Source: Simmondsia chinensis
Lineage: Eukaryota; Streptophyta; Magnoliopsida; Caryophyllales; Simmondsiaceae
Length of the DNA stretch: 64,000 nucleotides
Direction: 5' to 3'
Assembly: GCA_018398585.1 (NCBI GenBank)
Contig: JAGTTD010000015.1
Span: 29,841,478 to 29,905,477, forward strand
How positions within the stretch are numbered: position 1 is the stretch's first letter; every line of letters begins with the position of its first letter. Positions 1,601 through 57,983 of this stretch are shown here, in pieces. Made by a program: the position numbers and the translations under genes. The notes beneath the pieces were generated by a model that was given only the letters and a program-made list of their open reading frames with translations, was not told the origin of the DNA and ran no database searches.

Positions 1601-1848
1601 ACCCGTGCTAGGTTTGGAAAAATAAAAATAAATAAAAAACCACGAAACTCGAAGGCATAACAATAAGAGATAATCATAGTTTTTTAAAAAATAAAACACA
1701 CAGATCCAGTAACACAGCACTTCAAAACAAAATAAAATCTCTTCTCTAGTAGTTTCCTCTCAATCCAGTCATCAATATTCCAAAAGGCCTAACCATATTC
1801 GCATAAGAAGATAAAAAAAGAACTGAACTGAACGAACCGATAACAATA

Positions 1849-4800
1849 TCACTTGAGAGGAATGAACCGGGAAGAGTGGGTGGCACCGATACCTGGCCTT
1901 CCGTGCTTCACTGGTTTGTAAGAGATTGAGAATTCGGCCAAATAATGGCCGATCATCTCGGGTCTGATCTCGACTTGGTTGAATGTCTTCCCATTGTATA
2001 CTCCGATGATGCTTCCGATCATTTCGGGTACTATTATCATGTTTCTTAGATGTGTTCTCACTGGCTCCGGCTTCTCCCCTGGCGGCGCCTCTCTTTTCTG
2101 TTTAGCAGTGTGTCAAAATTAGGAAGAGAAAAGATAGAAAAGACAACTTAAATATAAGAGTTGTTAACCTGCTATATAGGAAGTGAATAGATAAGGTACA
2201 GGTCAGAGTCCTAGAAGTAATAGGACTAGAATTGGGGGTGTAAGTGAGCCCAGGCAGCTCGTGAGCCCTCAGGAGCCGGCTCATCATAAAGCTCGAAAAC
2301 CTCGGTTAGTGCCAAGCTAGAGCTGATCCGAGCCCGAGACTAAAAAAGTTCGAGCTTGTAAGCAAGCAAGCCTAAGCAAGCCTTATCTTAATATAATTTA
2401 GTAGCTTAAATATGTCAAATTGAGACAAGTTTGAGCCTTAACAAGCCGAGCCCGATATGAAATGAACCTAGATTGAGCTTGAATGAGCCACAAAATTGAA
2501 TGTTTTGTTTGAAGCTCACCGAACTGAATTTGAGCTCAACCAAGTCAGGCCCGAGCCCGAGCCTTTGACGAGCCAAGCTCCAGCTTGAAGTCTCCGAGTT
2601 CAGCAAGCTTGAAGTGGAGCCTCAAGCCTGACGAAATTGGACTCGGCTCGGCTCAAATGCACCCTAACTAGAATAATACGTACTTATATTTACTAATAAG
2701 CAACATCAAACCAAATGATTTAGAGCCCGATTGGTTCAATAGGAAATCGTTCTTCACAAAGTATTTTCAATTGAAAATAATTTTTCCGATCATGAATCAA
2801 CTGAAACAAGGCAGCTACACGGAACAACCATAGACCATACACAGCAAGAATGTTGTTATCTGCTACACAATGAGCCAAACCCTAAATTGAATACATCAAC
2901 CCAATCTTCTATATGAGAATCAATGGCCCCAAGCTCAATTAATCATTCACATCACAAGACCATGTAAATAAACATAACAAAATACATTACAATAATAAGG
3001 TATATTAAGACTAGTAGAAGCTCACTGAGGTTGGAAACTTCAAGCTCAAACTCGAAGGTTGGGCTTGGGTCATTTTAGTTAAGCTCGAACCCAACTCATC
3101 GAGTTTCAAGCTATACTCACCTTATATAATATCATTTAAGCTTAATTTAAGCTCATTTGGGCTTATGGAAGCTCAAGCTCAGCTCATTCACGCTTGAATT
3201 CAGCTCGACTAGATGTATATGGCCTAATAAGGTGGATGAAGATAGGCTTATTTACACACGTTTAGGCTTGGAAGCCTATGAGCCTGAGCTTCACTATATT
3301 GAAGCGTGGCTCATTAATGAGATGGGCTCCACTCGAGCTTGAAATGATTGCATCCTAACCCAATAAAATAACGTACCGCCTTGCGCAGTTTCTTGATTGA
3401 ATTAAGTTTGCATTGATTGAATTAGCACAGCAACAATTGCATCCTAACCCAATATTGTATACAATAATCAACGGCACCCAAATACAACTGATCATTACCC
3501 AAATACAACTGATCATTCACAGCACAAGAATGAGCAAATAGACACAACAAAATACCTTACAATTAAAGCAAAGGAAGATAAATAGGAATAAAATAACATA
3601 CCGCCTTGCGTAGTTTTTTTATCAAAGCCATCGGCTTACGCTTCAAACCACGAGAAAACCTATCATTTTACAAGAATACACAAATCAGCGCTAAGTAAAC
3701 TAAAACCTATCATTTTACAAGAATACACGAATCAGCGCTAAATAAACTAAGGCGTTGTTCAATGGAAGTTCTTTTCTACTACATTTCTATATCTTGAATC
3801 TCGGTTAGTAAAAAAAATGCGTATAATACACATTTTAGATACGTATGCATGCTTTCACATTTTAGAAACAACATTTACGTATAATTAGCAATAACACAAT
3901 ATAATACGCGTTCTCTTGGTAATATCCTTATAAATCACGCATTATAACACATATCCAAATTTTTCTCATTGAAAAAATAAATGATAGCTGAAAATAATCA
4001 ATAGCTACACCAAAATTAAATATTCATAATCTATATTTTGATAGAAGTGACCAACGAGGGCACCAACACGCCGTCACCGGATCCCATTAGAACTCCGAAG
4101 TTAAGCGTGCTTGGGCGAGAGCAGTACCAGGATGGGTGACCACCTGGGAAGTCCTCACCCTCAGGTTGGGGACACTGGGAAACAGCCTCTCTTCGGGTTA
4201 ACACCCTAAAGGGGGAAGGCTGCGTACATCCACCCCCCCCAGACCCTGCATAGGTGGAACTCCTGAGACACTGGGTATGTTCCTTTATATTTTGATAGAA
4301 CTGCCACTTTAGCTCTCAAAATATTGATTATACCCAATCATTTATTGTGTGTTATACTTCTACAACCGCTATTATAACTGACATTATCCTTTACTTTTTA
4401 TAAGTGAACAAACTTTCAATCGAAATTTTCATGTATACAGCAAAATAAATGGCAATAGATGCCAAGGAGAAAATATTTTCCGACAACGAGGAGGAGATGA
4501 CGTCCTCCCGAAAAAGGGAAATGGATTTTCCCTTACAAGAAGTAAATCCAATTTCTGTTTCATTCTTACATCCTCTCCTTCACGTCAACTTCTAGGACCA
4601 AATACGAACCATATAAGAATTTATATGACAAAAATGATTTCCAAAACTCAGATACAAGAAAATTTTGGAACAAATCGGTTCGAATTTTCTTTAGGAAGAA
4701 ATATATCCCCGAAGAAAATAATCTTCCCTTCAACCAACCAGAGCTCTACTAGAATCAGAATTTCGAGAGAAGCATGCACCTTCTGCGAACACGTGCAGGG

Positions 4801-7727: not shown

Positions 7728-8160
7728 GAGGCCACGGGCCGGGTCGGGCCCGGGCCTGGAGGGCTCCAGGGCCGGGCCCGCTACAGTGCGGGCTGGGTCA
7801 GGCGGGCCCAGGTTGGCCTTTTTTTATCAATTTAAAAAAAAATGCAAAATTTAAAAAATACAAAGTCGTTTTATACTAAAATTATTATAATTTATTGATA
7901 AATAATATGAGATATAAATACATTTTATCCCAAGCACTAATAATACTAAATATATGTAATGAAATAAAATATATAATATGTAATAGTAAATAATGATACA
8001 TAAATAACGTAACAAGTACAAATACAATGCAGTTAGAGCCTAATATTTAAAAGTACAAATTTGTTTATCAAAAAATATATAAAGTAAAAGTAATATAAAT
8101 TTTTTTTTTTTAATTAGGAGGACTCCCCGGCCCGGGCCCAACAAAAATTATTATGAACAT
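7728..8160. repeat. GGGCCC-rich ended element upstream of RPS15
   Basis: Starts with a very GC-rich stretch ('cgggccgggtcgggcccggg') and ends near 8126-8142 with 'ccggcccgggccca', with AT-rich DNA between. The inverted GC-rich ends suggest a hAT-like MITE, but I see no clean duplication. It may supply the GGGCCC/TGGGCC words in the RPS15 promoter. Confidence 0.4.
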
Positions 8161-8210
8161 TATTATTATTAGTTTTCTTTTTCCCTAAAAATCACTTCAA
8201 TTTTATGTAC

Positions 8211-8342
8211 AACAACAATAACAACAACAACAACAAACCCAGTGCCTACAAAGGGCTCCTGCAAAAGCACGGTCTGGAGTGTAGATGTACGCAGCCTTCC
8301 CCCTTCAGGGGATACCTTGAAGAGAGGTTGTTTCTGAGGACC
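8211..8342 (-). mobile_element. SINE/LINE 3' tail with (TTG)n
   Basis: Reverse complement of the shared tail: a CAA run at the left, 'cccagtgcctacaaagggct', 'gtagatgtacgcagcctt', 'gagaggttgtttctgagga'. The 5' part is missing, consistent with 5' truncation. Confidence 0.75.
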
Positions 8343-11428: not shown

Positions 11429-11603
11429 ACAACAAAAAACTCAGTGCCTGCAAGGGCTCCCGCAAAAGCAAGGTTTGGGGGGGTAGATGTACGCAGTCTT
11501 CCCCCTTCAGGGTGCTACCCTGAAAAGAGGCTGTTTCCGAGGACCCCCAACCTGAGAAGCTAGTCCGCAGCATAGAGCATGTGACCTGACAGCAGGAGAG
11601 TAA
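11429..11603 (-). mobile_element. SINE/LINE-tail insertion with 20-bp target duplication
   Basis: The 20-bp direct repeat CAAGCTTAAAATAAAGAACA at 11409-11428 and 11604-11623 frames a minus-strand copy of the shared tail ('cagtgcctgcaagggctccc', 'gatgtacgcagtcttccccc', 'gaggctgtttccgaggaccc'). The head (11555-11603) is neither 5S nor clearly tRNA and resembles LINE 3' UTR, so this is either a SINE or a strongly 5'-truncated LINE. Confidence 0.82.
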
Positions 11604-12530: not shown

Positions 12531-15500
12531 TTACAATGAGACTTTCGTGATTTCCCGCGATTCAAGCCTATTAATCAACTCAGGGACAATCCTTGTCAAA
12601 CTTAAAGAACTAAGTTTACCCTCACCTCGGCCTAACGGTAGCGATTTCGATACCAATGTGATATCTTCGTCACATGATGAATTTTCTTCTAGAAGCTTCT
12701 TCCAGAACTCGACATCCTCATTTAGATCACCGGTCTTGATGATATTTATGGCTTGTTCGAAAGTCGCTACGTTCCGGCCAGCACCGGAACCCATGGCAGT
12801 GGCGGCACCAACCGCATTAGCTATAGTAAGTGTGTGGGACATGGGCAGTTTGTGCACGAACCCATATGCGATTGCTGCTACGAAACTATCTCCACATCCA
12901 ACTGTGTCCATTACCTTCACCTGTATGATTTAAACCACTTCTCATATTTGAGTTGTGAATGAGAAGAGATCAATACCTAAGCCTAATGGGTTACTTCACC
13001 TAACGTCTAAAGCCTGGTGTAATTTCACAAAGAGCCTTTCATATTATGTAGCTAAACAAAGAGAGTGAAAATCGTAGTTTTTAACATAGTAAATTACAGT
13101 ACGGGAACTAAACAAGATTAATAGGGCATGTTTTGCATGCTATGAAAAAACTGCTTTTTCAGAAACAGTTTTGTAAAAATGCTTTAAATAGGGGTATTTT
13201 TGTCTAAAGTATATTCAATATTTACTCCTGATTCAGCATTAAAAGAGAAGCATTATTTTTCTACTTCTACTTCTACTTCTATTATAATACAATTTTCTTC
13301 TCAAGCAAAACACCCTCAAATCCTAAAAAGAAAGCGTTTTTTCCCTTAAAAAGAAAAGCTGCATTATGTCAATACAGTCATTTTAATGTTCAAGTTTCAA
13401 TTCACAACGACAAGAAGCACAATATAGTTTCATATTTTCAGTTTATAGTTCTTCCTAAAAAGAAAGCGTTTTTTTTTTTTTTTAAAACTTCTTCCTCTAA
13501 ATGCAAGAATCAATAAGGGGAAAAAATTGAAAAATATTACCTTAAATGATGGGGCACAAGATATTCTGGACAAAGAAATTAGAATGGAACCCCTGGAGCC
13601 AACTTTGACAATCACCCATTTAGTCCTTACTGATCTTCTGAGCAATTCTTGTCCGGCTAAAATTGGATTTCCAATCCCAGTTAACCATTCAGCCTAGTAA
13701 ACAAAAACCGAACAATCGTCAGATAAATACATCATTCAAATATCCTAAGATTTCAGCATTTTAGAACCAATCATGCAGGTTAGGGAAAAAGATTGGATAA
13801 AAAAAGTAAATTATCGTCTTTCGGATAACGCTTCAGGTAAATGAGGTCCCAAATTATTGAATAAGTTGAAAAGCTAAACATCTTCGGGAGTTAATAGAAG
13901 AACATCGCAACCCCCCAAAAACTCACTTAAAGCTATTTGCTCTTTTGGTGTTCCTGAAGTGCAAATGGCTCTTAGGTTTTGTTTGGCACTTAGAATTGAA
14001 ATTGGATTACAGAATTGCAATTCAGTTCCAATTCTAATGCGGTCGGAATTAAAACAGAATTGAAATCCCGTAATTTGGAGAATAAAAGAAATTAGAAGTT
14101 GGAATTATAATTCTAGACCCCAATCTTAGGCTTAGCTTCAATTAAAGGCTCTAATTTCTTGTGCCAAACAGCACCTAAGAGATTTTGAAGATAAAGGCAT
14201 CACCACAGCCAAGAAAAGAACTCAAACACAACTCATTAACTCGTAGAGGAGCGATTACAAAAATTGAGAAAGTTAAGAGATAAACCTCCTCAGAAGTTAG
14301 AAGAAGAACAACGGACATCTTCAAAAGCTCTCTCAGAGCCATTTGCTCTTCCGGGGTTCCGGAAGACAGAGATCTTCCCCGCGGTCCAGGATCAAAGAAA
14401 ACCGCTGTTCCAACTTTTACAGCATACTTTAGTGCAGATACTATCAAGCTCGGGGGCAGTTCATCGAAGCCATAGCCGTTAACAACTAAAATCTTTGACT
14501 TTTTTATTGCTGCCTTTACATCTGCTGTTAGTTGGGTCATCCAATTAAATGCAGGCTCGTCACTAAAATCCGCTCGACTGATAAACAAAAAAGATAATTA
14601 AGCGTGTAGCAATGACCAGAGTACACAAATAAAACAACGGATTCGCGATTTCATTCGTAGAAAATCAGGAAAAAGAAAACAAATCTGTAGAGGAAAAGAA
14701 AAGTTGACTCACGTAACTGGGAATGTATATAAGCGAGCCAAGCCCGAGATCGTCAGGCTCAAGGCTGAGCTCGGCTGCTTTTAGCTCAGCTGCGGCTTGC
14801 CTAGAACCTTGGTGAGCTTGGAAGCTTCAAGCTTGAGTTAGTCTCATTATAGGCTAGGGCTTGACTATTCTCAATTGAGGTTGGACCCAACTCGATGAGT
14901 ACTAAACTAAACATGTCTTATTTAGGTTCATGAGCTTAAGGCTCGTCTAGGCTCAAATTAAGCTCAATTGGGCATACGTAATAAATTGAACTAAGTTAGG
15001 CTCATGAACCTACGAGCCGGAGCTTCATTACTCAAGCATGAAACAAGTAACGCCTTTCAAGCTTTATAACGAGCCAGCTCAGAAGGACTTGCAAGCTGGC
15101 TCGGCTCATTTAATCCCCTAAACATAGACAATTCTAGGCCGTGAAATATGTTTGATTCGCAGGCCAGGTTTCAGAGAACTTCACTCTTTAAAAATGTGAT
15201 CAAGTACCTAAGTTCAAAACCAAGCGCAACAGGCTCAAAAAATCAGAAAAAACTGTTTCTAAAATGTGGTTTTAATTTCTAAAAAACCAAAAACAACAAA
15301 AAAGCAGAAAAGAGATACCAAACAAGCCCTGAGTAATCTAACTGATTTCGCACACCCCAAACTAATCCCACTATGACTGCAAAAGTATTTTCACCTGAAA
15401 AACATAGAAGAAAAATCATGAAAATTAACAAATAAAATCATCTAGCACATACCTGCAAAACCATGTTTTGCAAATGATTTTTTCTAGTTCATGATTTTGG

Positions 15501-18500
15501 TTTTCTATGTCTGTCAAACTGAGAAAAACTGGAAAAAAAAAAAAATTAGAAAACATCGTTTCCAACTATGGTTTTAGTTTCTAGAAGCCAAAAACTGCAA
15601 GAAAAACGATACCAAACAAGCCCTAAATAATCGAAACTGATTTCACACACCCCAAACTTATCCCACTGTTCCCCCGTGCAGTACTCTAAAAAAAAATTTC
15701 ATCATCATTCTTCAAGGAAAAAATAGAAGAAAAACCACAATAATGTAACAATTAGAATCAACTAGCACATACCTGCAAAAACCATGTCTTTGCAAAGGGT
15801 CTACCAGAACCCAACACAACAGTGTTTCACGAGCTGCACTTGCACTGCTAACAGTATTGAGATCCTCACTCATTCCAACCACACCGATACCTTCGTCTTG
15901 TAGCACATCTAAAAGAAAATTCCCATAAATTTCATTACCCACGTGGCCAATTGCTATACATCGAAGTCCCAGTCGAGCTGCTGCAATGGCAGTGTTGCAA
16001 TGGCCACCGGCTTCCCAATATTGCTATAGGCAAAACGCAACAGTCAAGGTCTAATAACGGAATCATCAAGCACAAGGTGATAACGGAAATTTTTTCTTCA
16101 CAAATATTCCATTTTTGAATACTTTTTCTTAAAAGTTTTTGTCTGTCTAGCCACAGAACATTGTTTCATTTTATAAATTTGCATGAGGTTCGCGTTTAGC
16201 TAAGTTGAAGTTAGAAGTGGAGCACGTGAAGTCTACTTAAACATAGATATACATATCATGCACACTTAGAATCTCTCACTCAAGCATCAACCATCATCCG
16301 TGTGCAAACTCAACTCTAATGATATAACCCTATTATAACATTTTATAGAGCTTTGCCAATCCCATCTCTTGGGCCCAAGCTTCAGCAATTAAAAAATGTA
16401 GACGCTAAGTTCCTAAATCCAATGGCCAACAATTTTCCCCTTACAGTCACCTGATGATATACCCCGCCATTGCTCTCTTGTCCGTCTTAAAAACATCAAA
16501 ATTGACTTCCACAACAATTACCTTTCGGTTTTACACTATTCCTAGTATCCATAGTTTCCTCAAAATTTTCCCTGTTTATCGATTCCAGATACAAAAAATT
16601 TTGCAACATTCAGAATGCGATTAGAGGCAATAGCTTCAGTTTTCAAACCCTTACCATTTCTCACGATCCAAATACTCCAAACAAGGATAAAAACTTAGGC
16701 TAAGTCATCCTTATTCCGCAAATTTCTACTGCGGTGCAATATATGGACCTAGTTACTTAAGTTGGTTCTTGGGGGAGAGAGATGAATCCAGTTACATTGT
16801 TGGGCTAAATTCTAAACTCATGTTACAGTTTGGCTGTGAAGGAAAAGATGATCTAGTGTTCTAGTTCAAACTCATAGCAAGGGTCATCCTTAGAGGCGAG
16901 GTATTAATGGAAAGTTTCCACCAAAATATATCGATCTCGGGCAAGATGTTTCATATTCCAGATTAACTTAGGCTTTGTTTCCACCAAGCTCGCTCCAGCC
17001 CAACTATAGATGCTCGCTCCAGCCCATCAGTTCCAAGCCCCTTCAATTGCAACTCATATTTTTTTCAGTCTTTTCATTTGCAGCCCTAAGTTTTCTCGAA
17101 AACTTTTCTTTCTTGTGTTTTCTTGACATCCAAACAAGGGGGAAAAAGTCATGTTTTCCTTATATTCTTTCCCTTGAACCCTTTTTCCTCTCAATTTTCT
17201 TTGCTCCAAATTTTCTCAATTCCAAATAGAGCCTTATGGTTCCAAGAATTTCTTTCATCCCAAATGAGATTGTGGGCTAACCACAACACGTACTATAGAG
17301 AAATGACATTTGGAGATACATAATTCATCTTTCATTTCTTGCTTTAAGGATAGAAATGCTATTAATGATTTCAATAAACTATTGCTTGGAATGCTTATCT
17401 GTTCTAGTTTTCACAAACGATGAACTCTACCACCTTTAAATCCGAACTCCTATCCTTCCTACTTCCAATTTTCCATCTCAAAACTTTAATCAATAGAAGA
17501 TCTTCTTCCACAACCATGAGTTAGCAGCCTCAGTTTCATAGTTAAAGAACTTATGCGTGCCCAAATTAGGTATATGGGCTTAAAGTAATATGATAATCTA
17601 ATAAGAAGTAAAGTGAGCCTAGTCTGGGGAGAGAGAGTAGCATTGCATGATTTGTAATACAATTGGCTACCTTTATATATATATATATAGAGTTTGCGCA
17701 GCTCTTCAGGCTAGGCCTACTTTACTCTTATTGGACTATCTTATTACTCTAGGCCCATATGCCTAATTTACCCGTACAATGACGTATAAAACATCTCCGT
17801 ATTTTTCCATTTTAAAAAGGGCATTTCTGTGTTATTGCCAATAATATGGTAAATACAGCTCTTCCATGTAAGCTAGCTCCTTTAGTACCGTCATTTGGAC
17901 TAGTTTATTAAATACATGTAACTATTTGATTAAAAGGCAATTTCACAAAATTTGCGCACTAAAAAGTTAATATATCAAACATCAAGATACTAATACACAA
18001 TTTACCCAACTTAAAAACACGATAGACCAGCAGTGTAAATAACTCAGAGAAAAAAACAAAAGAAAAACAAAATAAAAAAGACAAGGGACTAATTTCAACA
18101 AAATAAAAGATTAATGACATGCACCCTAATTAGGTATTTGAGTATATAGTATTACGATAGCCCAATAGATTAGTGGGTCCCGCCTAGGAAGGGGGTTATT
18201 GTTATTCTATAAATAGGGCAGCGGTGTATTACAATGAATCAATTAAATCAAATGTCATCTTTTATGTTTTCTCTCTTATCACTTTATATTTAGTATTTTA
18301 CTATATTTCTTTAGTTTCAATATATTTTCCAATTTAAATTGTATCAACAAAGAACCAATTTTAACAAACTTACAAACATTTGGGATCAATTTAAACAAAT
18401 TTACAAATATTAGGAACGAACAGTGTAAATAACTCAGAGAAAAAGGGAAAAGATACCAACTTTATGAGGAGGAGAAGAAGCTAACTCCTCCATGTAAGCT

Positions 18501-18811
18501 TTTCTCTCATGTAATCCATTAGGAGGAAGCTGCGGCACATTGAGTACAATGTCGACACACAGATTCCCTAGCGTCGCAACATCGACGTTCTTCACCGCAA
18601 TCTCTTCCAATTTCTCTCTCGGACTACACACGTTCGCCGAATTCACCGTACTGGAAGAGCAACATAATTCGATTCGTTTGCAATTTGAGATCGAATTTGA
18701 GATTGAATTTGAATTATGATGAGAATTGGAGACGAACGGGAGATAATTAGGGCTAGGGTTTGGAGGAAAGAGAGAGATTGTTGAGTTCGGAGGTGCGATT
18801 AGGAGATTCAT
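12531..18811 (-). CDS. pfkB-type carbohydrate kinase, probably plastid-targeted, five exons
   Basis: A ribokinase/fructokinase-family ATP-dependent sugar kinase; the substrate cannot be read from sequence. Coding exons (minus): 18461-18811, 15773-16023, 14286-14577, 13541-13693, 12531-12920. Joined: 1437 nt, 478 residues, all GT..AG, phases consistent. Residues 1-60 are Ser/Asn/Pro-rich without acidic residues until about 48, like a plastid transit peptide. The kinase domain opens at about 78 with VATLGNLCVDIVL, then YWEAGG (119-124) and GLRCIAIGHVG. The anionic-hole and catalytic-base motif DTVGCGDSF is in exon 5, with D360 the expected catalytic Asp. It resembles, from memory, an Arabidopsis pfkB-like protein of unassigned substrate. 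Introns hold a hAT MITE, an L1-type LINE relic and two partial exon duplications. The stop codon touches a MITE, so the last residues may differ from the ancestral C-terminus. Confidence 0.92.
13862..13968 (-). pseudogene. Duplicated 3' half of kinase exon 3
   Basis: On the minus strand this translates as TSGTPKEQIALSEFLGG and then DVLLLTPEDV before a stop; true exon 3 has SSGTPEEQMALRELL and VVLLLTSEEV. It keeps a GT at the copied donor position but adds an in-frame stop if read through. It lies downstream of its parent exon, in intron 3. Confidence 0.8.
13969..14181. mobile_element. MITE-like inverted repeat in kinase intron 3
   Basis: Left arm CTCTTAGGTTTTGTTTGGCA and right arm TGCCAAACAGCACCTAAGAG are inverted repeats with two differences. 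It separates the pseudo-exon at 13862-13968 from exon 3. No unambiguous direct duplication. Confidence 0.6.
14718..15120. mobile_element. hAT-type MITE in kinase intron 2
   Basis: Left end TGGGAATGTATATAAGCGAG, right end GGCTCGGCTCATTTAATCCC followed by CTA; interior of agctc/gagcc words. The flanking 8-mers do not match, so the duplication has decayed or the left end is misplaced. Confidence 0.65.
15288..15480 (-). pseudogene. Duplicated end of kinase exon 2 with donor and intron flank
   Basis: The plus-strand text 'tctagcacatacctgcaaaa' at 15441-15460, followed by 'ccatgttttgcaaatg', repeats 'actagcacatacctgcaaaa' at 15761-15780 and 'accatgtctttgcaaaggg', which is the end of exon 2 with its donor. 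Upstream text ('accaaacaagccct', 'cacaccccaaact') is repeated too, so the unit is about 150-190 bp. Confidence 0.75.
16290..17560 (-). mobile_element. L1-type LINE relic (zf-RVT and RNase H region) in kinase intron 1
   Basis: On the minus strand, interrupted frames read like the C-terminal part of plant L1 ORF2: a stretch with WWKLSI resembling the zinc-binding RT-associated domain, then VWSIWIVRNG-like text and a GKIVGHW-like RNase H segment. Many stops and frameshifts. Split by the MITE at 16971-17233. Assignment rests on remembered family patterns. Confidence 0.5.
16971..17233. mobile_element. Tourist-like MITE nested in the LINE relic
   Basis: Starts GGCTTTGTTTCC, ends CCAAATAGAGCC, with TTA on both sides (16968-16970 and 17234-17236), the usual PIF/Harbinger target duplication. 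263 bp, non-coding. Confidence 0.7.
17545..17790. repeat. Inverted pair of LTR-like ends
   Basis: 'attaggtatatgggct', 'agtaatatgataatct' and 'aagtaaagtgagcctag' (left) face their reverse complement at 17705-17785 ('taggcctactttactct', 'ggcccatatgcctaattta'), ending 'cccgtaca', the complement of a TGTACGGG start. A (TA)n run sits between the arms. A related single arm lies at 18121-18240, and both may be copia LTR fragments. Confidence 0.5.
18121..18340 (+). mobile_element. LTR-like fragment
   Basis: 'ctaattaggtatttgagtat', 'gatagcccaatagattagtg' and 'ctataaatagggcag' resemble the arms at 17545-17790, and the last looks like an LTR TATA region. No ends found. Confidence 0.4.
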
Positions 18812-18890
18812 TGATAGAGAGAGAGAGAGAGGAAGAGAAGAAGAAATTTGGCTCCAGTTTCTTCGTTGAACTTTATTTATTACGACAAAA
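18812..18890 (-). promoter_or_regulatory. Kinase 5' UTR CT tract and TATA-like element
   Basis: Directly upstream of the kinase ATG the plus strand has (ga)n at 18812-18833, i.e. a CT-rich leader (Y-patch-like). An AATAAATAAAG element lies near 18872-18884. Upstream space is short: a MULE-type MITE begins at 18938. Confidence 0.5.
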
Positions 18891-18937
18891 TTATCACTTA
18901 AATAAGTTTAAATATTTTAAAATTTATATATTTTTTT

Positions 18938-19850: not shown

Positions 19851-19877
19851 GTTTATCTCCCTTCCCCCAAGACATTA

Positions 19878-20071
19878 AAGCAACATTCTCAGTGTCCTAA
19901 GAGCTCCCGCGTAAGTAGGGTCGAGGCTGTTTTCGAGAAACCTTAACCTGAGGGGTGCAATACGAAAACTTCCCAAGAGATCATCCATTTTAGTATTACT
20001 TTTGCCCAAGCATGCTTAACTTCAGAGTTCTAATGGGATCCAGCGCTTGTGTATTGGTACCCTCTTAGTTA
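19878..20071 (-). mobile_element. 5S rRNA-headed SINE, second copy
   Basis: On the minus strand: 'ctggatcccattagaactct', 'gaagttaagcatgcttggg', 'aaatggatgatctcttggga', then the junction 'cccctcaggttaa', the tail words 'aaaacagcctcgaccctact', 'gcgggagctc' and 'gacactgagaatgtt'. The flanks CCTTCCCCCAAGACATTA (19860-19877) and CTTTCCCCCAAGGCATTA (20072-20089) are an 18-bp duplication with two differences. It has lost the middle part of the tail and is older than the copy at 4047. Confidence 0.85.
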
Positions 20072-20099
20072 CTTTCCCCCAAGGCATTACTATTGTTAC

Positions 20100-22119: not shown

Positions 22120-25100
22120 TCAAAGCGAAATCTTGGGGCGAAACTGTTGCTTTGCAATGTGTTCGAGTCGAGTAAGTACCTTCCGAGCCACGTCAGCGTA
22201 CACAATGGCAGTATGAGAATCAGGCGCGGATATTACTACAGGGACGCCCTCGTCGGAGCCACTTCTAATGTTCACTTCCAGTGGTATCTGCAACAAGAAA
22301 CATGGTAGAAGCCAAGTATTTAGTGTACCAGTCGAAGCCGCTCTCCTGATAACAATGAACATAGTTACTTCGACGTCAAATTCAGGGTTATTCACGCTAG
22401 GGATGTATCAGGCTCGAGGCTCAGCTTTTCAGCAGCTAGCCCGGCTCAGGTCTGGTTAGAAGCTTGCCGAGTTTGCAAACTTCAAGTCAGAGCGGAGCTT
22501 GGCCCGACACAATGAGCTCGAACCAAGCTTGAGATTCATTTAAGCTCAATAGGGAAGAATGTAAAGGACATATTCAAAAGTTGCTAAAATATTCTTAGTG
22601 CATCGAAAAGAGTATTCGGGTCGGACTACGCATTATGCCGAAGCGAATTTATCACTTAGGTACCTTTATATTTAGATATTTATCACCTAGTACCTCCAGC
22701 TGGAGCCTAGTGAATTTTCAACAAATCAGCCAATTTTCACCCAAAATGCCGATGAAGTACATGATTACTGCAACATAAATGAGCTATGTCTCTGCAAAAT
22801 TATGAGAAAGATCACTAAAATCTGTCAAAAGATACTCATATTTTACCGAAATAATGTATCATATCAGCAATTTTCAACCAAAAGATCATCAAATTATGAT
22901 AGAGGACACCTATATGTTGTTCAAGTATTGTTCAAGGTCAACAATTTTCAATGAAAATCCATTGAATTTTTGCAAAGTATACCTGATTAATAAAAATCTT
23001 AAACATAGGGTAACTGAGCAACAAATTTTTTAAACCTCGGGTTATCGCATTATATAAATTAAAAATGTCAAAAACAATTAGATGATAAATGCTCAAATCT
23101 CATGACACCAAGGTGATAAATTCCCTATGTCAAACTATAAACACATAAATCATATATTTTCAAACGGAAACAAAAATGGTGCATCGCACGGGCAAAATCT
23201 AGTGCATTGCAAAGAAGAGTCGAGTCACTTACGCCACCGAGATATTCGAGTGACATGTCATCAGCTGTCCTCTGCGCTCCGCCTTCGCCGAAGATGTGTG
23301 AAGGTTCACCGCAATGAGGACACTTAAAGCAGCTCATATTTTCTATGATGCCCAAAATCTGCATAATTCACCACAAAACCATTTTGAATTTTAGTGATCA
23401 GAACCAGGGCACCAATTCTACCTTTATTTCTTTATTTTCTGGGTTATTTACGCCCAAGTGTTCTTGTAAGTTGCACGTTGTGTCAATTTAGTCATTTTAC
23501 TTATTTCTACCAATTTAGTCATTGTGTCATAGCGCCTCTAGGTTTGTATGTTTGTTGCTCTTGCCTATTTGCATGCTTGCGCGTCTGTCTAGTATTGCTA
23601 TATTTAACTTGACTTTGACTTGATTTTATAATTATTTTCATTATAGTTATAATTATTGTCTTGTTCTTACTTTTTTAGGACAGGGAGCCCTCGGACATAG
23701 CCTCCCTACAGGGTGGCATCCTGTAGGGATAAAGCTGCGTAAATTTTACACTCCCTAGAGCCTGCCTTGGAGGAAACCTTTCAGATATTGGGTTTGTCGT
23801 TGTTGTTGTACTTTTAACTGTATCAATTTAGTCGCAGTAAAATTTATACCGTGTCAATTTAATCCTAAGGTGAAATTGAAGTTAAATCGAGGGAGGATGC
23901 CTTGCGGCAGATGTGTGGACACACAAGGAAGGATATGCTCAAAAATGACATAATAAGAAGCAAATTGGGGCCCCGATAAAGGATAAATTGAGGGAGCAAT
24001 GTTTGCAATGGTTTGGGCATATTAGGAGGAGACCGACCATTGCCCCTGTCAGGAGATATGAACAATTCTATTCTACGCTCGGGAAGAGAGGGAGAGGCAG
24101 GCCAAAGAAGAGATAGATGGAGACAATTCAACACGACCTCACTCACCTAAACCTAAATGAGATGACCTTAGACAAGGCTGAGTGGAGAGCTAGCATAGGT
24201 GTAACCAATGTAACGGTTTAGAATAGCAGAGCGTATCTAGGCTAGGCTTAGCGGCCCTAGGCTTTTTTTTGTCGCGCTACTTGTTGCTTTATCACCTTAC
24301 TACGTATTGCTCTATGGCTTTATTCATTATTGTTGCTTTATGTTCTCTTTATGCTATTGCTATTGCTATCACTATATGCTTACAGGTTTCAGGTTGGGGG
24401 TGCTCGAACATAGCCTCTCTTTGGGGTGGCACCCTGGAGGGATAAGGCTGCGTACATCTCACTCCCCAAGACCCTACATTAGCGGAAGCCTTTGAGGCAC
24501 TGGCTTTGTGGTGGTGGTGGTTGGTGAAATTGAATTTAAAGGTCATGTTTGTATTGGTTTCTATTAGCAATTTTTAATGTTTGGGACATAGAAAAATCAA
24601 GTTTTGAAAACAGTTTTTTCTTGTTTTAGTTTTTTGTTTTCAAATTTTGCTCAAACTAGAAAAAAAATTGAAAACTAGAAAGAAAAATCATTACTAGAAT
24701 ATGCTTTTAATTTCTAAGAAACCAAAAACTCTGAACTAAAAACAACGCCAAACAAGTACTAAGTTAGTGACGTAATTTAACAGTCTGGTCATGTCAAATA
24801 CAAGTGACACAATATAAACGCACCCGTGACTCAGCCATTAAAAATTCCACCACCAATGTAATGCTAATTTAACTATAGGACGAGCAAACAAACAACAAAC
24901 AACAACAAATCGAGTGCCTCAAAAGCTTCTGCCAAAGGCAGGGTCCCGCACCGGGGGGGGGGGGGGGGGGTTTACCCCTCTAGGGTACTACTCTAAAGGG
25001 AAGTTGTGTCCAAGGACCCCCAAACTGAACAGCAAAACAATAGCAGCACATAGAGAGCCTAAAGCAAAAAGCAGTACACCGCACGAGCAGTAAGCAACAA

Positions 25101-32119: not shown

Positions 32120-32525
32120 AGCGAGGAGAAACTTGCGAACAAAAGCCGACACCTCAAATAAGAGACCCGAAGAGAACATACAAAGTGTGAGAGAAAAGAG
32201 AAATAACAACGAAGCCTGCAAAAAAAAGACAAGCACAACCCCCAAAACTACATCCAAAAAGCCCAAAGAAAACACGACAGAACAAGAGAAAAGAGACCCG
32301 AAGAAAAACAACCTCCAACCCCCAGCAACAGACACGGAAAAAAAAAACAACCACCACTCACGAGCAACTTGAGATACACCAAGAGCGCCCCACCAAAGAA
32401 GATACCCAAAACGAATGCCAAGGGAAAGGACCTCAACCAAACCTTGACAGACTGCAACGAAACCAAAATGAAAGCACTCGGACAGACACTTAACGGTTCA
32501 TACTAGTAATAAATATATGGCATAT
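32120..32525 (-). repeat. Purine-rich segment, possibly LINE 3' UTR
   Basis: An A/C/G-rich plus strand, i.e. T/G-rich on the minus strand ('ggttggaggttgtttttctt'), without protein motif; its open frames on both strands are compositional. Its right end forms one arm of the inverted repeat at 32442-32612. Similar composition at 47340-47580. Confidence 0.4.
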
Positions 32526-32612
32526 TTTTAATTATTATTTATTACTCCTATGAACCATTAAGTGTATGTTCGAATGCTCTCATTTTGGTTTCATTGCAGT
32601 CTGTCAATAAAC
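32442..32612. repeat. Inverted repeat, ~75-bp arms, short loop
   Basis: Left arm 'ttgacagactgcaacgaaac' ... 'cttaacggttcata' ... 'agtaataaat' faces right arm 'atttattactcctatgaacc' ... 'ggtttcattgcagtctgtca'. The loop is about 10-15 bp. A transcript would fold into a long hairpin with scattered mismatches. Confidence 0.8.
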
Positions 32613-35887: not shown

Positions 35888-35907
35888 GAGAGATATTTTA
35901 AGTAAAA

Positions 35908-38520
35908 ATGGTTGCAAGAAGGACGTTTCGCTCTAGAACAAGAGCAAACACCAATTTAGAAGGGCTCGTGATTGTGTTAAAATCAGCCGTTTGTGAATGG
36001 ATTTTGCTCTTTTTCTTGATTCTAGACGCAGCATTTTCGTATTTGCTAACAAAGTTTGCTCAATATTGTGAGCTCCCACTACCTTGCATATTATGCTCGA
36101 GGCTTGATCATGTTCTTGGCAAAGAAAAACCTGAATTCTATAGGAATTTGCTTTGCAATGATCATAAATCAGAGATTTCGAGTTTAGTTTCTTGTCAAAT
36201 TCATGGTAGACTCTCCAAAGTTCATGGAATGTGTGAGGAATGTCTCTTATCATTTGTTGGGAAGAACAATTTAAACGAAGAAACGTTCAAACTCTTGTTG
36301 GGTAAACTGGGTTTGGATCATACCCAGAAAGATCCGAGGTCTTGTTCTTGTTGCAATAAAAAGTGGAGATCTAGACCAAACGTACAAAAATTGTTTCAAT
36401 CAAGACCGGTTGTGCCTTTAGCAACAAAACCTGATATTCCCCTTCCGAGATCACCTGGACGTCGATGCTTAAATCGCCAAGAAGGGTTGAAAAAGAGGAA
36501 AGACAGGTTTTCGGTTTCAACTACACCTCTCATCTTGGGATCCAGAGGTTACGATACCTTGTCTCACATTGGATATACCGAGTTGAAGATCAGTTCTGAT
36601 CCAGACTCCGATTTTCCCTTATCAGATGACAATGAAATGACCACTTTGCTTCTCGACAAGTCAGATTTCAATGATGGACTGACATCTCAACCGGGCTTAA
36701 GTTTCTTACCCAAAAAATCATATCACGATTCACTATTAATGGAGCATACCCAGTTGCCCTCGGTTTCTGGGGGTGATCTCATTGATGCATATATTAAGCC
36801 TGATGTGAGCAAAGATAGTAACCGTGAACATGTGGCGTCTAATGGTGACATTGGGTTTGGTCTCCGGGAAATTAACTGGCAAATGGCTCACCAAAATCCA
36901 GGTTCTACTTCGTTATCTGAGCGTACTTTGTCTGATGCTTCGAAGATTGGGACTAAAGCTTCATTGGTTGTGTCGACAGATGAGGCTAAAGAGAAACTTA
37001 CTCCATCAAAGAAGCTTGGTGCTTCCGGTTGGCCGGATCCGATCTTTAGAAACAATGTAGCTTCTTCCATGAACAATGTGGCAATTCCGGTTAAAGCTTC
37101 TCCAGGTAAGTGCAAGCTCACACTACTCTCTCTCTAGCTCTGTTTGATTCAATAGAAAATATTTTTCTTATGGAAAATTTTTTCCCGCAAAATGATTTTC
37201 ATTTAAACTATTTTTTCTGTAAAACAATTTGTTTTCTAATTCTTGTCAGAAAATGACTTAATTAATTTATATGAATGAAGTTCACGCTTCGCCAAGTTGA
37301 GGTTAGAGTGAAGCATATGACATGAGACATGACATTGCAATTGAACAAGTTAGCCCCTCCATGAAGGAAAATATTTTCCATATTTGTGGCTGTTACTATG
37401 AAGTTATGCAAAGAAATAATAGAATTGAGATAGAAAAGATTTTCTGTTAGAACAAACGGAAGCCTGTGTATGTACACCAGTTTGTATACAACATGGAATC
37501 AAATAAAGTCCAATACGTGGATGGAGATTGAACGAGACATCGTGCAATTCACCCCTTAGACAGTGTTACTTTTGTAATAGTCCATAATAGATGGATTGTA
37601 TTGTTCAATTAAAACGCATTTATTAATGTATTTACATTAGCATAAAGGATACAGAAACTAATAATTACTTGGCTATTCAATCAATTTTTTGAAAAATGTT
37701 GCTTAAGAACTACACCCAGCTTCTGTAATTTTAATACTAATGTGAACTACAATTTGATTCCATGGTGTAGTACAGTTGCGTATATGCAAGTAATGCATCT
37801 TTTTTCTTTGCGTTTCGATTCATCTTACATGATCCACCCCTCCCCAACATCACGACAGATGTTAAGGAAAACGGAGACATTCAACATCCTACAGCAACAG
37901 CACCGAGCTTGGAGACTAATTCAGAGAAGATAAACACTCCATCAGCGCCTAATCACGTTGATCAAAACGCAAAAGAGAAAGAAGCAAATGTTTCTAATGG
38001 TGATATCGAACCAGAGGACTTGAAAGTAGCTGACACTTCAAGTTCAACCGAGTCCCAACCACTCACAAACCCACCCTCAATGGAGAGCTCTCCGTCTGTC
38101 CAATCCTTAGACACTGAAACCGTTATACAACAGTTAAAACAACAAGTCGAGAACGACAAGACCCGGATCAACAATCTCTATAAGGAGCTAGAAGAGGAGA
38201 GAAACGCAGCTGCAATAGCAGCTAATCAAGCAATGGCGATGATAACGAAATTGCAAGAGGAAAAGTCTGCACTTCACATGGAGGCTTTGCAGTATTTGAG
38301 AATGATGGAGGAGCAAGCAGAGTATGATGTGGATGAGCTTGAGAAAGCGAACGATCTTTTAGCAGAAAAAGAGAAGGTGATTCAGGACTTGGAAGCTGAG
38401 TTGGAGTATTATCGGATTAAATACCCGGAAGAGTTTCTGAATGAAGTTTATGATGGTGTTGCAAGGATGGAATTTGGTGAAAATTCAAATATCGATGTCG
38501 GTAGATTGAAGGATTTATAG
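35908..38520 (+). CDS. Myosin-binding (MyoB-like) protein with GTD-binding domain, two coding exons
   Basis: Member of the plant DUF593/zein-binding family, whose proteins anchor class XI myosin tails to vesicle membranes; the maize member is FLOURY1. Coding exons 35908-37105 and 37859-38520 join in phase 1 (GCTTCTCCAG|GTAAGT; CACGACAG|ATGTT) to give 619 residues, stop TAG. A single membrane segment, about residues 26-50 (WILLFFLILDAAFSYLL), is followed by the family Cys signature PCILCSRLDH and HGMCEECLLSF. A long, low-complexity, probably disordered middle follows. The GTD-binding coiled coil is at about 486-585, from ETVIQQLKQQVENDK through EALQYLRMMEEQAEYD to DLEAELEYYRIKYP. Membrane anchor plus coiled coil is the family layout. 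The specific orthologue is not assigned. Confidence 0.92.
37106..37858. other. Intron of the myosin-binding gene
   Basis: GT..AG intron of 753 bp. The first part (37140-37260) has 'gaaaatatttttcttatgg' MITE-like text; otherwise nothing recognised. Confidence 0.7.
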
Positions 38521-44781: not shown

Positions 44782-44900
44782 ACTATGAGCACCTAATGCC
44801 TTTACTAGTGAAGAACTTAATGCTATAGCTAATAAGGACAGTACAAAATAAAGTACAAAGTATTGGACTAATTTAGCATATTATCACAATTGAAAAAAAA

Positions 44901-45932
44901 AACTGGAACTGTGGAGAGGGGTTCTAGAGTCGAAGGGCTTGCGACTAAGCAGAGCCAAGACCGAGTACATGGAACTCAAGTTCGATCCATCTACCACGCC
45001 TAGCCGAGAATAAGTCAAGATTGGACACGAGGCCATTTCGAAGACGGAAAGATTCAGGTATTTAGGGTCCACGATACAACACAATGGCGAAGTGGACGAG
45101 GATGTCAGCTACAGGATCAAATCGGGTTGGCACAAGTGGAGGATGGCCTCTGCGGTACTTTGTGATAGAAAATTCCCCTTGAAGCTAAAGGGAAGATACT
45201 ATAAGACGGTGGTGCGGCCAGCCATGGCGTATGGGGCGGAGTGCAGGGTGATGAAACAATAGCACACTCAGAAGATGAAGATGGCGGAGATGCGAATGCT
45301 GAGTGGATGTGCGGACACACAAGGAAGGATAGGATTAGAAACGACATCATAAGAGGTAAATTGGGCGTAGCTCCCATTGAAGATAAATTAAGGGAGCATC
45401 GTTTGAGGTGGTTCGGACATGTCAGGATGAGACCGGAAGAAGCTCCAGTCAGAAGATGCGAACAGCCTATTACTACATTAGGCAGAAGAGGCAGAGGCAG
45501 ACCGAAGAAGAGATGGCTTGAGATGATTCGACAAGACCTCACCCACCTAAACCTTCGGGAGGAGATGGTCTTAGATAGAGCCCAATGGAGGGCTAGCATA
45601 GGGGTATTAGATGACCCGGTTGGAGTAGGATAGTCTTTAGCTCTATCTGTCTATCCCTTTCTATCTTTCTATCCCTATCTCATCCTCTCTCTCGTACTCT
45701 TTCCGTTTCTCATCTACCTTTTTCTTTTTTTTGGTGTGGCCCATACTTATGCTCTCTGATGTTTGCCAAGTCTTTTGGCTGATGGATGCAAGACCATCAT
45801 CTTAGGCTGGGGGTCCTAGGAAACAGCCTCTCTTTAGGGTAGCCCCCTAAAGGGGGAAGACTGCGTACATCTACCCTCCCTAGACCCTGCTTTTGGCGGG
45901 AGCCCTTGGTGGCACTGGGATTGTTGTTGTTG
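44901..45932 (+). mobile_element. 5'-truncated RTE-like LINE with 19-bp duplication
   Basis: The 19-bp direct repeat TATCACAATTGAAAAAAAA at 44882-44900 and 45933-45951 frames the insertion. 44901-45240 encodes the RT C-terminal half (text like RFRYLGSTIQHNGEVDEDV, KGRYYKTVVRPAMAYGAEC). A one-frame shift leads to 45241-45633 with [35 protein letters not shown] and [11 protein letters not shown] 3' UTR follows, ending with the shared tail (45805-45925) and (TTG)n. Stops and frameshifts make it inactive. Confidence 0.9.
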
Positions 45933-46009
45933 TATCACAATTGAAAAAAAATTTCAGCAAAATATCATAACTTTGAAAATATTTAGCAAACTATCACATT
46001 TTACTGTAG

Positions 46010-46247: not shown

Positions 46248-46360
46248 GGGTCTGGGAAGTCCTCACCCTCAGGTTGGGGGTACTGGGAAACAGCCTCTCT
46301 TCAGGTTAACACCCTGAAGGGAGGAGGCTGCGTACATCCGCCCCCCAAACCCTGCGTAAA
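46248..46360 (+). mobile_element. 5S rRNA-headed SINE, 5'-truncated copy
   Basis: Begins within the last part of the 5S head ('tctgggaagtcctcaccctc'), then 'aggttgggggtactgggaaa', 'cagcctctcttcaggttaac', 'aggctgcgtacatccgcccc'. It preserves the exact head-tail junction of the copy at 4047. Confidence 0.8.
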
Positions 46361-54108: not shown

Positions 54109-57100
54109 ATGGCTTCATCACTGAAGGAAATAATAGCGAATTTTGTGAAGTTGGACCATTTTAATGGCGGTAATTCCCGCTATTGGCAGAGGAAGATGCA
54201 CTTCCTGTTCACTACTCTGAATGTGGTATATGTTCTGAATACACCATTCCCTGCCCCCTTCTATGGCGGAGGAGGAGACTCTGGCCGAGCAACAAGCCCG
54301 GCTGAAATGGGAGAATGATGATTACATTTGTAGAGGGCACATACTGAATAGGATGGCAGATGCCCTCTTTGACATCTACTCCAACGTGCTTACCGCAAAG
54401 GAACTGTGGGACACTCTAGAGGCACGCTACATGGCGGAGGACGCCATAAGTAAGAAATTTTTAGTTAGTCAGTTTAAAAATTACAAGATGGTTGATGAAT
54501 GTTCGGTCATAGAGTAATTCCATAAAATTAAAAGAATTTTAAATAACTTTAAATAGCATAGCCCGAATATGGACGACACCATCGTTGTGTCTTCTTTAAT
54601 TGACAAACTTCCTCCTTCGTGGAGAGATATCAAGAAATCTCTCAAACATAAGAAAGAAGACATGTCAATCAAAGAGTTGGCTAACCATTTACGAATTGAG
54701 GAAGGTTACTAGTTACAAGATGACCAAAAGGAATGCCCCGATGACATTGGAAAAACCAATGTTACAAGAAGAAGGCTAATCGTGTAGAGGAACACAAAGA
54801 ATCGGACATTCCTAAAAGAAACGAAACAAGAAGAAGGCCAAAATGGTTTGTTGGGAGTATTAGAAGTGTAGTTACCTAAAGAGGGACTATTTTCGCCTAA
54901 AGAACAAGAAAGGCAAGGGGCTTGATCATCACAACAAAAAGTCGAACAATAGATTCGTGGCGATGATATCGGAGATCAACCTAGTCGAGAGTGATGACTC
55001 TTGGTGGGTTGACTCGGGGGCCATAAAACATGTTTGTGAAGACGAGGATTTCTTTAAAGATTTAAAACCCATAAATGGAACTGTATTGTTTATGGGCAAT
55101 GGAGCAAGTGTACCGGTTAAGGGCAAGGGAAAAATTGACTTACCTTTCACTTCCGAAAAAACCCTTATCCTAACCAATGTATGCTACGGCCCGGATATTA
55201 GGAAAAACCTAGTCTCTGGTGGCCTACTGAATATGTTCAGGTTCAGGCTGGTCTTCGAGGTCGACAAGGTTGTTTTGTCGAAGGGGGGTATCTTTGTGGG
55301 CAAGGGATACCTGTGTAATGGAATATTTAAGTTAAATGTTGATAATAAAATTGATAGTTCAGTTTATATGCTTGACTCTTCTTATTTATGGCATCAAAGA
55401 TTAGGACATGTGAATTTTCGTAGGATGCATGAAATGGTTAATTCGTCGTTGATACCACATATTGGTAAAGTGATGATAAATGCAAAACATATATGTTAAA
55501 GAAATAAAGAAATTACCATTTCCATCAGTTCAAAGAGAAACGAATTTACTTGATTTAGTACATAGCAATCTATGTAAGTTTAAAAGCACTCCAACCATAG
55601 AAGGAAAAAGATATTTTATAACATTCATTGATGATTCCATGAGATTTTGCTATGTGTATTTAATTAATCATAAAAATGAGTCACTAGAGAGGTTTAAGGC
55701 ATATAAAGTGGAAACTGAACTACGCTGTGAGACCTTCATCAAACGACTCAGATCAGACCGTGGTGGAGAATACTATGATCCCAAGTATTTTGAAACCACT
55801 GGTATGGTGCATGAAATCACAGCACCTTACACGCCACAACAAAATGGTGTGCTAAGAGGAAAAACGGGACTCTAACTGAAATGATCAACTCAACGTTGTC
55901 CTACTCCGGTCTCAGCGATGGGTTTTGAGGTGTCAGCGACGGGTTTTGGGGTGAGGCTATGTTAACATCCTATCATATTTTAAATTGAGTTCCAAACAAG
56001 AAAAGTAAAATAACCCCATATGAACATTGGAACGGTCGACCCCCGAAGTTGAGTTATCTTAAAGTGTGGGGGTGTAAGGCAGTCGTTAAAGTCCCTGAAC
56101 CCAAACATAAAAAGTTAGGTGAGGGAGACATTAATACTATATTTGTTGCATATGTTCCACATAGTAAGGCGTATGGATTCTAGGTAATTGAGCCAAATGA
56201 TTGTATCAATATTAATATCATAATAGAATCGAGAGATGTCATTTTTGATGAGAATCGGTTTACCTCTGCTCCTAGACGAAGGGATTATGTACCGGTTGAG
56301 ATTGACACTCCAGTGTTGTATGATGATGTTGATCATCATAAGAGGGAACAAGTCCCTAAGAATGCTCTAGAACTCCGAACGAGTAAGAGAGCGAGGAAAG
56401 AGAAATCTTTCTGATCGAACTTCTACACATTTTTGGCAAAAGGTTCGAGTAATGATATAGACATCGTGACTCCATATTGTTGTGTCATGTAGGCTAACCC
56501 CATGACGTTTTCATCATGGGCAACAATACCTAGGTATTGGTGGATCTTCCATGAGGTAGCAAGCCTATCGGGTATAAATGGATCTTTAAGAAGAAGATGA
56601 AAATCGATGGAACTATAGATAAGTTCAAAGCCCGATTGGTAGCTAAAGGGTTTACCCAAAAACATGGGTTAGACTACTTTGATACATATGCCCGGGTGGC
56701 GAGAATATCGACTATAAGTGTCTTAATCGCTCTTGCCTCTATTTATAAACTAGTGATTCCACAAATGAATGTCAAAACGGCTTTGCCGAATGGTGAACTA
56801 GAGGAGGAGGTGTATATGACATAGTCGTAAAGTTTTGTTGTTCCGGGTCAAGAAAGAAAGGTATGTAAACTCATACGCTCTCTGTGTGGGCTAAAGCAAG
56901 CCCAGAAGTAATGGCACCAAAAATTTGATCAAGTTGTTCTAAACAATGGATTCATTTTAAATGAATCAGATAAGTGTGTCTATAGCAAGTTCGAGAATGG
57001 AAAAGGTGTCGTGATTTGTTTATATGTCGATGATAGGTTGATTTTCGATACTAATTTGGAACTAGTAGAGAAAACTGAACAATTTCTCTTAGTGAACTTT

Positions 57101-57983
57101 GCTATGAAAGACATGGGTGACGCTGATGTGATCCTCGGTATAAGGATTGTAAGGAACAGTGGTGCAATATCCTTGACACCGTCTCACTACATTGAAATTG
57201 TGTTTAATAGATTCAACTATGGTGCATGTACACCGATGTCCACTCCAATAGATCCTAGTGTGAAACTAGTACTAAATGTGGGCACTCCTATATCACAGTT
57301 GGAGTATGCTCGAGTCATTGGATGTTTCATGTATGCCATGACTAGTACTAGGCCTGATATAGCCTATGATGTGGGAAAGCTAAGTAGATATACTAGTAGT
57401 CCGAGTAACTATATTGGCATGCGGTGTATAGAGTACTGAAGTACCTTAAGCGTACCATGAATTATGGTATTTCTTATGTAGGGTATTCTCCCACTTTGGA
57501 AGGATACTCTGCTACCAGTTGGATCTCCGTTGTGGAAGATCATGCATCTACAAGCCGATGGGAATTCTGCTTGGTAGGGGTGTGGTTTCTTGGGGTTCCA
57601 AGAAACAGACTTGTATATCTGATTCGACAATGGCGGCAGAGTTCATAGCTCCTGCTTCTGCAGCTAAAGAAGCCGAGTGGTTAAAGGATCTCTTGTATGA
57701 GATTCCTTTGTGGCCTAAGTCGATCTTACCAATATCTATACTCTATGATAGTCAGGCTACGCTTTCAAAAGTGTATAGTAAGGTGTACAATGGAAAGTCC
57801 GGGCACATTGGTGTAAGGCATAGTATTGTGAGACAACTTGTTCGAGAAGATATTATCACTGTGGACTTTGTGAGAACGAGTCAGAATCTAGCGGATTTGT
57901 TGACAAAAGACCTAGCTAGAGACTTGGTTCTGAAAACTAGTGATGGGATGGGGTTGAAACTTATCATTGTCAGTCACTCATGA
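54109..57983 (+). pseudogene. copia gag-pol, interrupted
   Basis: Order gag, protease, integrase, RT, RNase H, as in Ty1/copia. Gag: MASSLKEIIANFVKLDHFNG, then RGHILNRMADALFDIYSN after a +/-1 shift near 54260. Protease WWVDSGA at about 55002. GAG-pre-integrase LWHQRLGHVNFRRM (near 55387). Integrase has FIDDSMRFCYVYL and RSDRGGEYY; the usual first catalytic Asp region reads HSNLC, and the text after PYTPQQNGV is shifted, so the catalytic triad is damaged. RT has KARLVAKGFTQKHGLDYFDT and YVDDRLIF (57025). RNase H ends LADLLTKDLARDLV. At least five stops or shifts. Non-functional. Confidence 0.88.

Follow-up and report, generated by a model that had tools for sequence, protein, structure and literature searches.

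The window, i.e., the whole stretch of 64,000 nucleotides of Simmondsia chinensis DNA that was analysed, contains three copies of a SINE with a head derived from 5S rRNA, together with several LINE-type 3' ends. Apart from these elements, a gene for a myosin-binding protein is present (frames within 35902-38520, joined by hand); its top named matches belong to Caryophyllales (Spinacia, Ancistrocladus, Gypsophila, Saponaria, Amaranthus, Chenopodium, Silene, Beta, Nepenthes) with 46-48% identity, while the best match overall, outside these named ones, reaches 52%. On the reverse strand, frame pieces spread over several kilobases (12531-18907) resemble by translation a PfkB-type sugar kinase gene. 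On the forward strand, the broken frames at 54864-57983 look, by their translation and its motifs, like a Copia-type LTR retrotransposon, and a long imperfect hairpin lies at 32469-32582 (28.3 bits with the microRNA model vs. a cut-off of 100; perhaps a small inverted-repeat element). The SINE and LINE features of the window are as follows.

4032-4049 (+), 5' target-site duplication of SINE copy 1
4050-4285 (+), SINE copy 1, full length, 8-nt-deletion subfamily (RF00001, E 1.8e-13; genome copies)
4050-4159 (+), head of copy 1, derived from 5S rRNA, with the 5S internal promoter region (RF00001; consensus comparison)
4160-4285 (+), tail of copy 1, RTE-like LINE 3' end (LINE similarity from CTCAGG onward)
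4286-4303 (+), 3' target-site duplication of copy 1
11439-11556 (-), LINE-type 3' end, insertion with a 20-bp duplication
19862-19877 (-), 3' target-site duplication of SINE copy 2
19878-20073 (-), SINE copy 2, from an older subfamily with a short tail (internal deletion); its 5S 3' end is complete (RF00001, E 1.6e-7)
20074-20089 (-), 5' target-site duplication of copy 2 (a T-run lies 10 nt upstream)
24389-24509 (+), LINE-type 3' end
44901-45932 (+), RTE-like LINE, 5'-truncated, which ends in (GTT)n and carries the same 3' tail at 45801-45890, 19-bp duplication 44882-44900 / 45933-45951
45205-45633 (+), C-terminal part of the LINE protein (homologues)
46250-46359 (+), SINE copy 3, cut at both ends, deletion joint kept (tail match; profile match)

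The Rfam model of 5S rRNA (RF00001, gathering score 38) matches positions 4050-4167 of the forward strand with 72.8 bits (E 1.8e-13) and positions 20064-19952 of the reverse strand with 50.3 bits (E 1.6e-7), i.e., copies 1 and 2 both exceed the threshold. For copy 1, this agrees with the earlier note on this DNA, which had read a 5S head of ~110 nt with box A and box C regions at 4047..4285. Copy 1 is flanked by a duplication of 18 bp with 1 mismatch (4032-4049 / 4286-4303) instead of the perfect 15-bp repeat described before, which puts its start near 4050; the score of this duplication was equalled at 0.26% of 5,000 random places. Its identity to a consensus built from 39 genome copies is 94.1%. 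Furthermore, the proposal that its tail is at the same time the 3' end of LINEs in the window proved correct: positions 4155-4285 have 12 further matches there (E ≤1e-3), copy 3 and several LINE 3' ends included, and a profile made from the three copies detects 19 window places (E ≤0.002), including the SINE copies themselves. The RNA fold of copy 1 is no better than that of shuffled sequences (z 0.01) and covariation in the tail alignment indicates a weak 7-pair hairpin; neither result supports a recognised RNA structure.

Copy 2 is, as had been noted, a minus-strand element with a 5S head and its own duplication, but it extends from 20073 to 19878 and the duplication comprises 16 bp with 1 mismatch (score reached at 0.64% of 5,000 random places). 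Compared with a typical 5S rRNA, 17 of its 21 differences are C>T or G>A, and at least 3 of these 17 equal the state of the plant's own 5S genes. Copy 3 was rightly described as a 5'-truncated element that keeps the joint, but it covers 46250-46359 and its 3' end is missing too; no convincing duplication was found around it, since 27% of random places equal its best score. Between the 600-bp flanks of the window's SINE copies, only weak short matches exist (best E 4e-5, 46 nt, 78%).

The assembly to which the window belongs, with 35 contigs and 831 Mb, was used for the genome search. A joint pattern of 26 bases, which counts joints of the 8-nt-deletion type only, was found with up to 3 mismatches at 11,472 places (5,712 forward, 5,760 reverse), compared with 0 matches for the reversed pattern used as control, so that the check for further copies with the shared junction, proposed in the earlier note, has a clear outcome. 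Taken all as full length, these joints would correspond to ~0.3% of the genome, which overestimates their share, given that part of the copies are truncated. With the query 4047-4285, 6,660 first-look candidates were obtained, and the best 40 that were scored are all nearly whole-length (40/40), 92-100% identical and located on many contigs; 37 of them fit the deletion-joint expression and 3 fall outside it. The family is thus a short unit (consensus 237 nt, from 39 copies) dispersed on both strands. Note that one of the 40 best copies (L037) was dropped as a duplicate of another (L036), leaving n=39; L036 on contig C33 and L037 on C32 carry the same SINE copy, duplication and upstream flank, which is a recent duplication or an assembly duplicate. 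Among the 39 copies, no pair is more than 97.5% identical, a result that does not speak for current activity of the family.

A second, less selected sample consisted of the first 40 of 100 listed joint sites; since all 40 have the exact joint and all are on contig C1, it leans toward younger copies. If full length is defined as a start at consensus base ≤6 and an end at ≥230, 29 of these 40 copies are full length; of the others, 10 lack part of the 5' end and 1 lacks part of the 3' end, 5' truncation being expected because copying would begin at the 3' end. The 29 full-length copies are on average 92.3% identical to the consensus (84.0-97.4). In the whole C1 sample, C>T and G>A together account for 345 of the 511 differences; C>T was seen at 35 of 368 CG sites vs. 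142 of 2,265 other C sites, a pattern that fits the decay of methylated DNA. Outside this genome, the joint, head and tail patterns had no match in viral contigs, and the joint pattern had none in the genome-contig collection; as the tail-only pattern is also absent from viral contigs, this is uninformative on rarity in plants. When protein frames spanning the joint were searched for, 9 matches were obtained; all 9 resemble 5S-type frames, and the LINE tail is absent from them.

Duplications at individual genome copies, as the mobile-element reading of the earlier note demands, are readily found. A duplication score of ≥13 is reached by 25/39 best copies and by 25/40 copies of the C1 sample vs. 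0/456 and 1/467 mispaired flanks, respectively (score ≥10: 28/39 best copies vs. 14/456 mispaired flanks); the score is below 13 in 14/39 and 15/40 copies, and some duplications scoring ≥13 are AT simple repeats (L064, L075, L084). The duplications are mostly 13-25 bp long and lie directly at the ends of the ~237-nt unit, and the element starts at query base 3-6, near ACCAA, in 18 of the 27 copies with a clear duplication. A T-run is present 7-14 nt upstream of the duplication in 17/27 SINE insertions vs. a background of 20% (P 1.6e-6) and in 18/28 insertions of the C1 sample. In the window, 6 of 7 LINE and SINE insertions have such a T-run (P 5.8e-4, with the duplication start set by hand for 3 of the 7, at 11556, 24389 and 49703), copy 1 being the exception. 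Duplications open with TA in 11/27 (best copies) and 6/28 cases (C1 sample), and with T of any kind in 18/27 and 13/28, respectively. According to PMC13295347, plant RTE LINEs and their SINEs leave a 'Tn-TA' signature, in which a T-run lies ~10 nt upstream and the duplication opens with T followed by A. The insertion sites of the SINE match this signature in part.

The plant's own 5S genes are clustered: 46 of the 47 scored are found in two clusters on contig C8, and 1 on C29. From CACCGG to GTCC, the SINE consensus has 3 differences to the main own 5S types (L041, L051); before this segment the divergence is strong, the element beginning with ACCAAAGAGGG. As in SINE3, the 5' module is a promoter region derived from 5S rRNA, and the consensus is by inspection free of TTTT. 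The motif ATTAG in the head, at a place where a typical 5S rRNA has ATCAG, was considered as a SINE-specific feature and rejected, as the plant's own 5S genes carry ATTAG.

The original joint can be seen in L006, L140 and copy 2 of the window, all of them older copies, where the complete 5S 3' end (TTGCACCCC) is followed by TCAGG or TTAGA of the tail; L140 is an older copy that has the full tail. In copy 1 with its large subfamily, and likewise in copy 3, the 5S 3' end is shorter by 8 nt. The joint 'aagtcctc-accctcagg', previously regarded as that of the family, is indeed common to copies 1 and 3, but copy 2 keeps the 8 nt that they lack, and as judged from these alignments the joint is a derived deletion. 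Furthermore, copy 2 and a copy in L002 (L002:1994-2087, +, with a perfect 16-bp duplication) have a common internal tail deletion of ~50 nt, which removes GGCTGCGTACA; its breakpoints in the two copies agree to about 2 nt. The motif GGCTGCGTACA is one of the Angio-SINE group (37-bp Angio-domain in the 3' end), to which the family may be related. The gap in copy 2, formerly interpreted as loss of part of the tail in an older copy, does exist, but it is likely a trait of a subfamily rather than of this copy: because the L002 copy has the same gap, the short tail looks like a subfamily feature, on two copies. This deletion is a natural test of the part of the tail that is needed.

A further element, in L124, differs in its joint, ends in a GTT-type sequence and is, by reading, more 5S-like at the 5' end. 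This older, separate combination of 5S and LINE tail is present in two copies 6,265 bp apart, at 1800-2040 (-) and ~8065-8305 (-), and the pair sits in what seems to be a block duplication, in which LINE and SINE copies are found as well. Note that L006, L002 and L124 were found by a scan of 294 kb, which is not a genome-wide count.

The presumed partner of the SINE is represented in the window by the truncated LINE at 44901-45932. Its frame 45205-45633 has 873 homologues; among the best 120 of the 873, the named organisms are plants and some of the proteins are annotated as reverse transcriptase. With Pfam, this C-terminal fragment had no match. In the plant's own genome, the frame gave 17,421 first-look candidates, of which 150 were scored. 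The SINE tail has 42 matches in 38 LINE loci with a mean identity of 83%; none of them adjoins a recognised SINE head, and one is window copy 3. The similarity between LINE and SINE starts at tail position 6-11 in 35/42 matches and at position 6-8 in 27/42 (position 7 corresponds to 4160), and in 33/42 its end lies immediately ahead of the (GTT)n repeat. Two of the tail-bearing LINE loci (L122 and L123) contain frames of 831 and 762 amino acids with an RVT_1 domain (E 4.1e-34 and 2.3e-33), i.e., the SINE has its 3' end in common with a LINE that possesses a reverse transcriptase domain. The (GTT)n end and the upstream T-run of this LINE fit plant RTE elements; its placement in RTE is tentative and based on these features.

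Taken together, the copies very probably represent an abundant SINE family that combines a 5S head with an RTE-like LINE tail, is presumably mobilised by the LINE and has spread in its 8-nt-deletion version to more than 11,000 sites. The founder would have been a 5S rRNA fused to a LINE tail at the exact 5S 3' end, i.e., with the joint seen in the older copies, and this fusion may have occurred through template switching from LINE (or SINE) RNA to 5S RNA. The 5S internal promoter in the head would enable RNA polymerase III to transcribe the SINE from inside the element; both this transcription and its start point are predicted from the sequence. The tail of the resulting RNA would be recognised by the LINE endonuclease-reverse transcriptase, and this putative enzyme would nick the DNA and copy the SINE RNA from its 3' end (target-primed reverse transcription), LINE-driven insertion then leaving duplications such as those observed, mostly of 13-25 bp. 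Later source genes probably lost 8 nt at the joint, and it is the deletion version that spread thereafter to more than 11,000 sites.

The source of the tail allows another interpretation. An Au-like (Angio-type) SINE may have existed beforehand and had its tRNA head exchanged for the 5S head, in which case the tail comes from this SINE and not directly from a LINE. Indeed, the 3' end of our element is T-rich (TATGTTCCTT and repeats) where the LINE has (GTT)n, and its end segment GCGTAGGCGGGAGCC appears to resemble that of Au. Au-like SINEs terminate in short T stretches (PMC3747384 Table 2), and a precedent may exist in moths, since the authors of HaSE3 regard this element as a chimaera of 5S rRNA and a tRNA-derived SINE (PMC3272025). 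However, the similarity to the LINE extends up to the 5S joint, with AGG(T/C)TGGGGG included, and the older element in L124 has a LINE-like GTTGTT end. We therefore regard such an exchange of heads as possible, if somewhat doubtful.

5S RNA can retrotranspose singly, any one copy alone could be a chimaera, and one might see in all of them independent 5S pseudogenes or chance chimaeras without a mobile family. This is highly improbable and already contradicted: one joint with a specific 8-nt deletion occurs at 11,472 places, and the copies have changes of the head in common in comparison with the plant's own 5S genes, and have duplications of their own. The view of the earlier note that three insertions mean a mobile family rather than a chance fusion is borne out by these joints, by the individual duplications, by the tail shared with LINEs and by the 5S genes being clustered elsewhere. 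Practically negligible is the idea that the copies are fragments of Cassandra, which carries 5S sequence in plants (PMC10853983) in its LTR, or of a 5S gene array, the two cases that the same note had named as refuting its reading: duplications of mostly 13-25 bp adjoin the ~237-nt unit directly, the three copies in the window have nothing but weak short matches in common in their 600-bp flanks, and two clusters on C8 account for 46/47 scored 5S genes.

For the 5S-headed family, a bolder and in our estimation unlikely extension would be that plants have SINE3 elements that arose repeatedly, an RTE LINE having captured 5S more than once (the L124 type being separate), and that the short subfamily spread without GGCTGCGTACA, which would make this conserved block dispensable for mobilisation. 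The subfamilies are natural deletion variants for testing the RNA needs of a plant RTE enzyme.

For land plants, three SINE/LINE pairs are tabulated, all of them tRNA-headed (PMC3747384 Table 1), and a 2022 review describes plant SINEs as tRNA-derived, its table having tRNA only (PMC9033089). No plant 5S SINE was present among the matches listed in our literature search, which covered titles and abstract openings (SINEBase and Repbase were outside its scope), in line with the previous suggestion that the family may be new or little described. As far as the literature searched goes, a 5S head with an RTE tail is already known in springhare and moths, and the plant case is apparently unreported. 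A SINE with a 5S head and more than 11,000 joints in one plant genome breaks the working rule of a tRNA origin of plant SINEs (PMC9033089). AnnoSINE excludes candidates nearly identical to known RNAs (PMC8825457), and annotation tools may overlook families of this kind.

Among the known systems, HaSE3 of moths is similar in having a 5S head, most similar in the promoter region, and a 3' tail common to an RTE LINE (PMC3272025). Besides occurring in a moth, it differs in the body that it shares with a tRNA SINE and in the TGA repeats at the end of its LINE partner. Ped-1 of the springhare likewise combines a 5S promoter with a Bov-B tail (PMC3747384 Table 1), Bov-B belonging to the RTE clade according to PMC13295347; this is a mammalian element, and its origin is presumably independent of that of the plant SINE. 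Of the plant SINEs, TS has a tail common to a plant RTE LINE (PMC3747384), but its head is tRNA-derived and not 5S-derived; the likeness of Au is in its short T-rich 3' end (PMC3747384). Cassandra is, like the family described here, a plant retroelement with a 5S-derived promoter, but it is an LTR element with another integration mechanism, in contrast to the short unit bounded by long duplications. A 5S-type SINE element was proposed as the source of the 5S sequence of Cassandra (PMC10886601), while another route is favoured in PMC10853983. With no link of descent to Cassandra in our data, the family is a plant example of the type of source so proposed.
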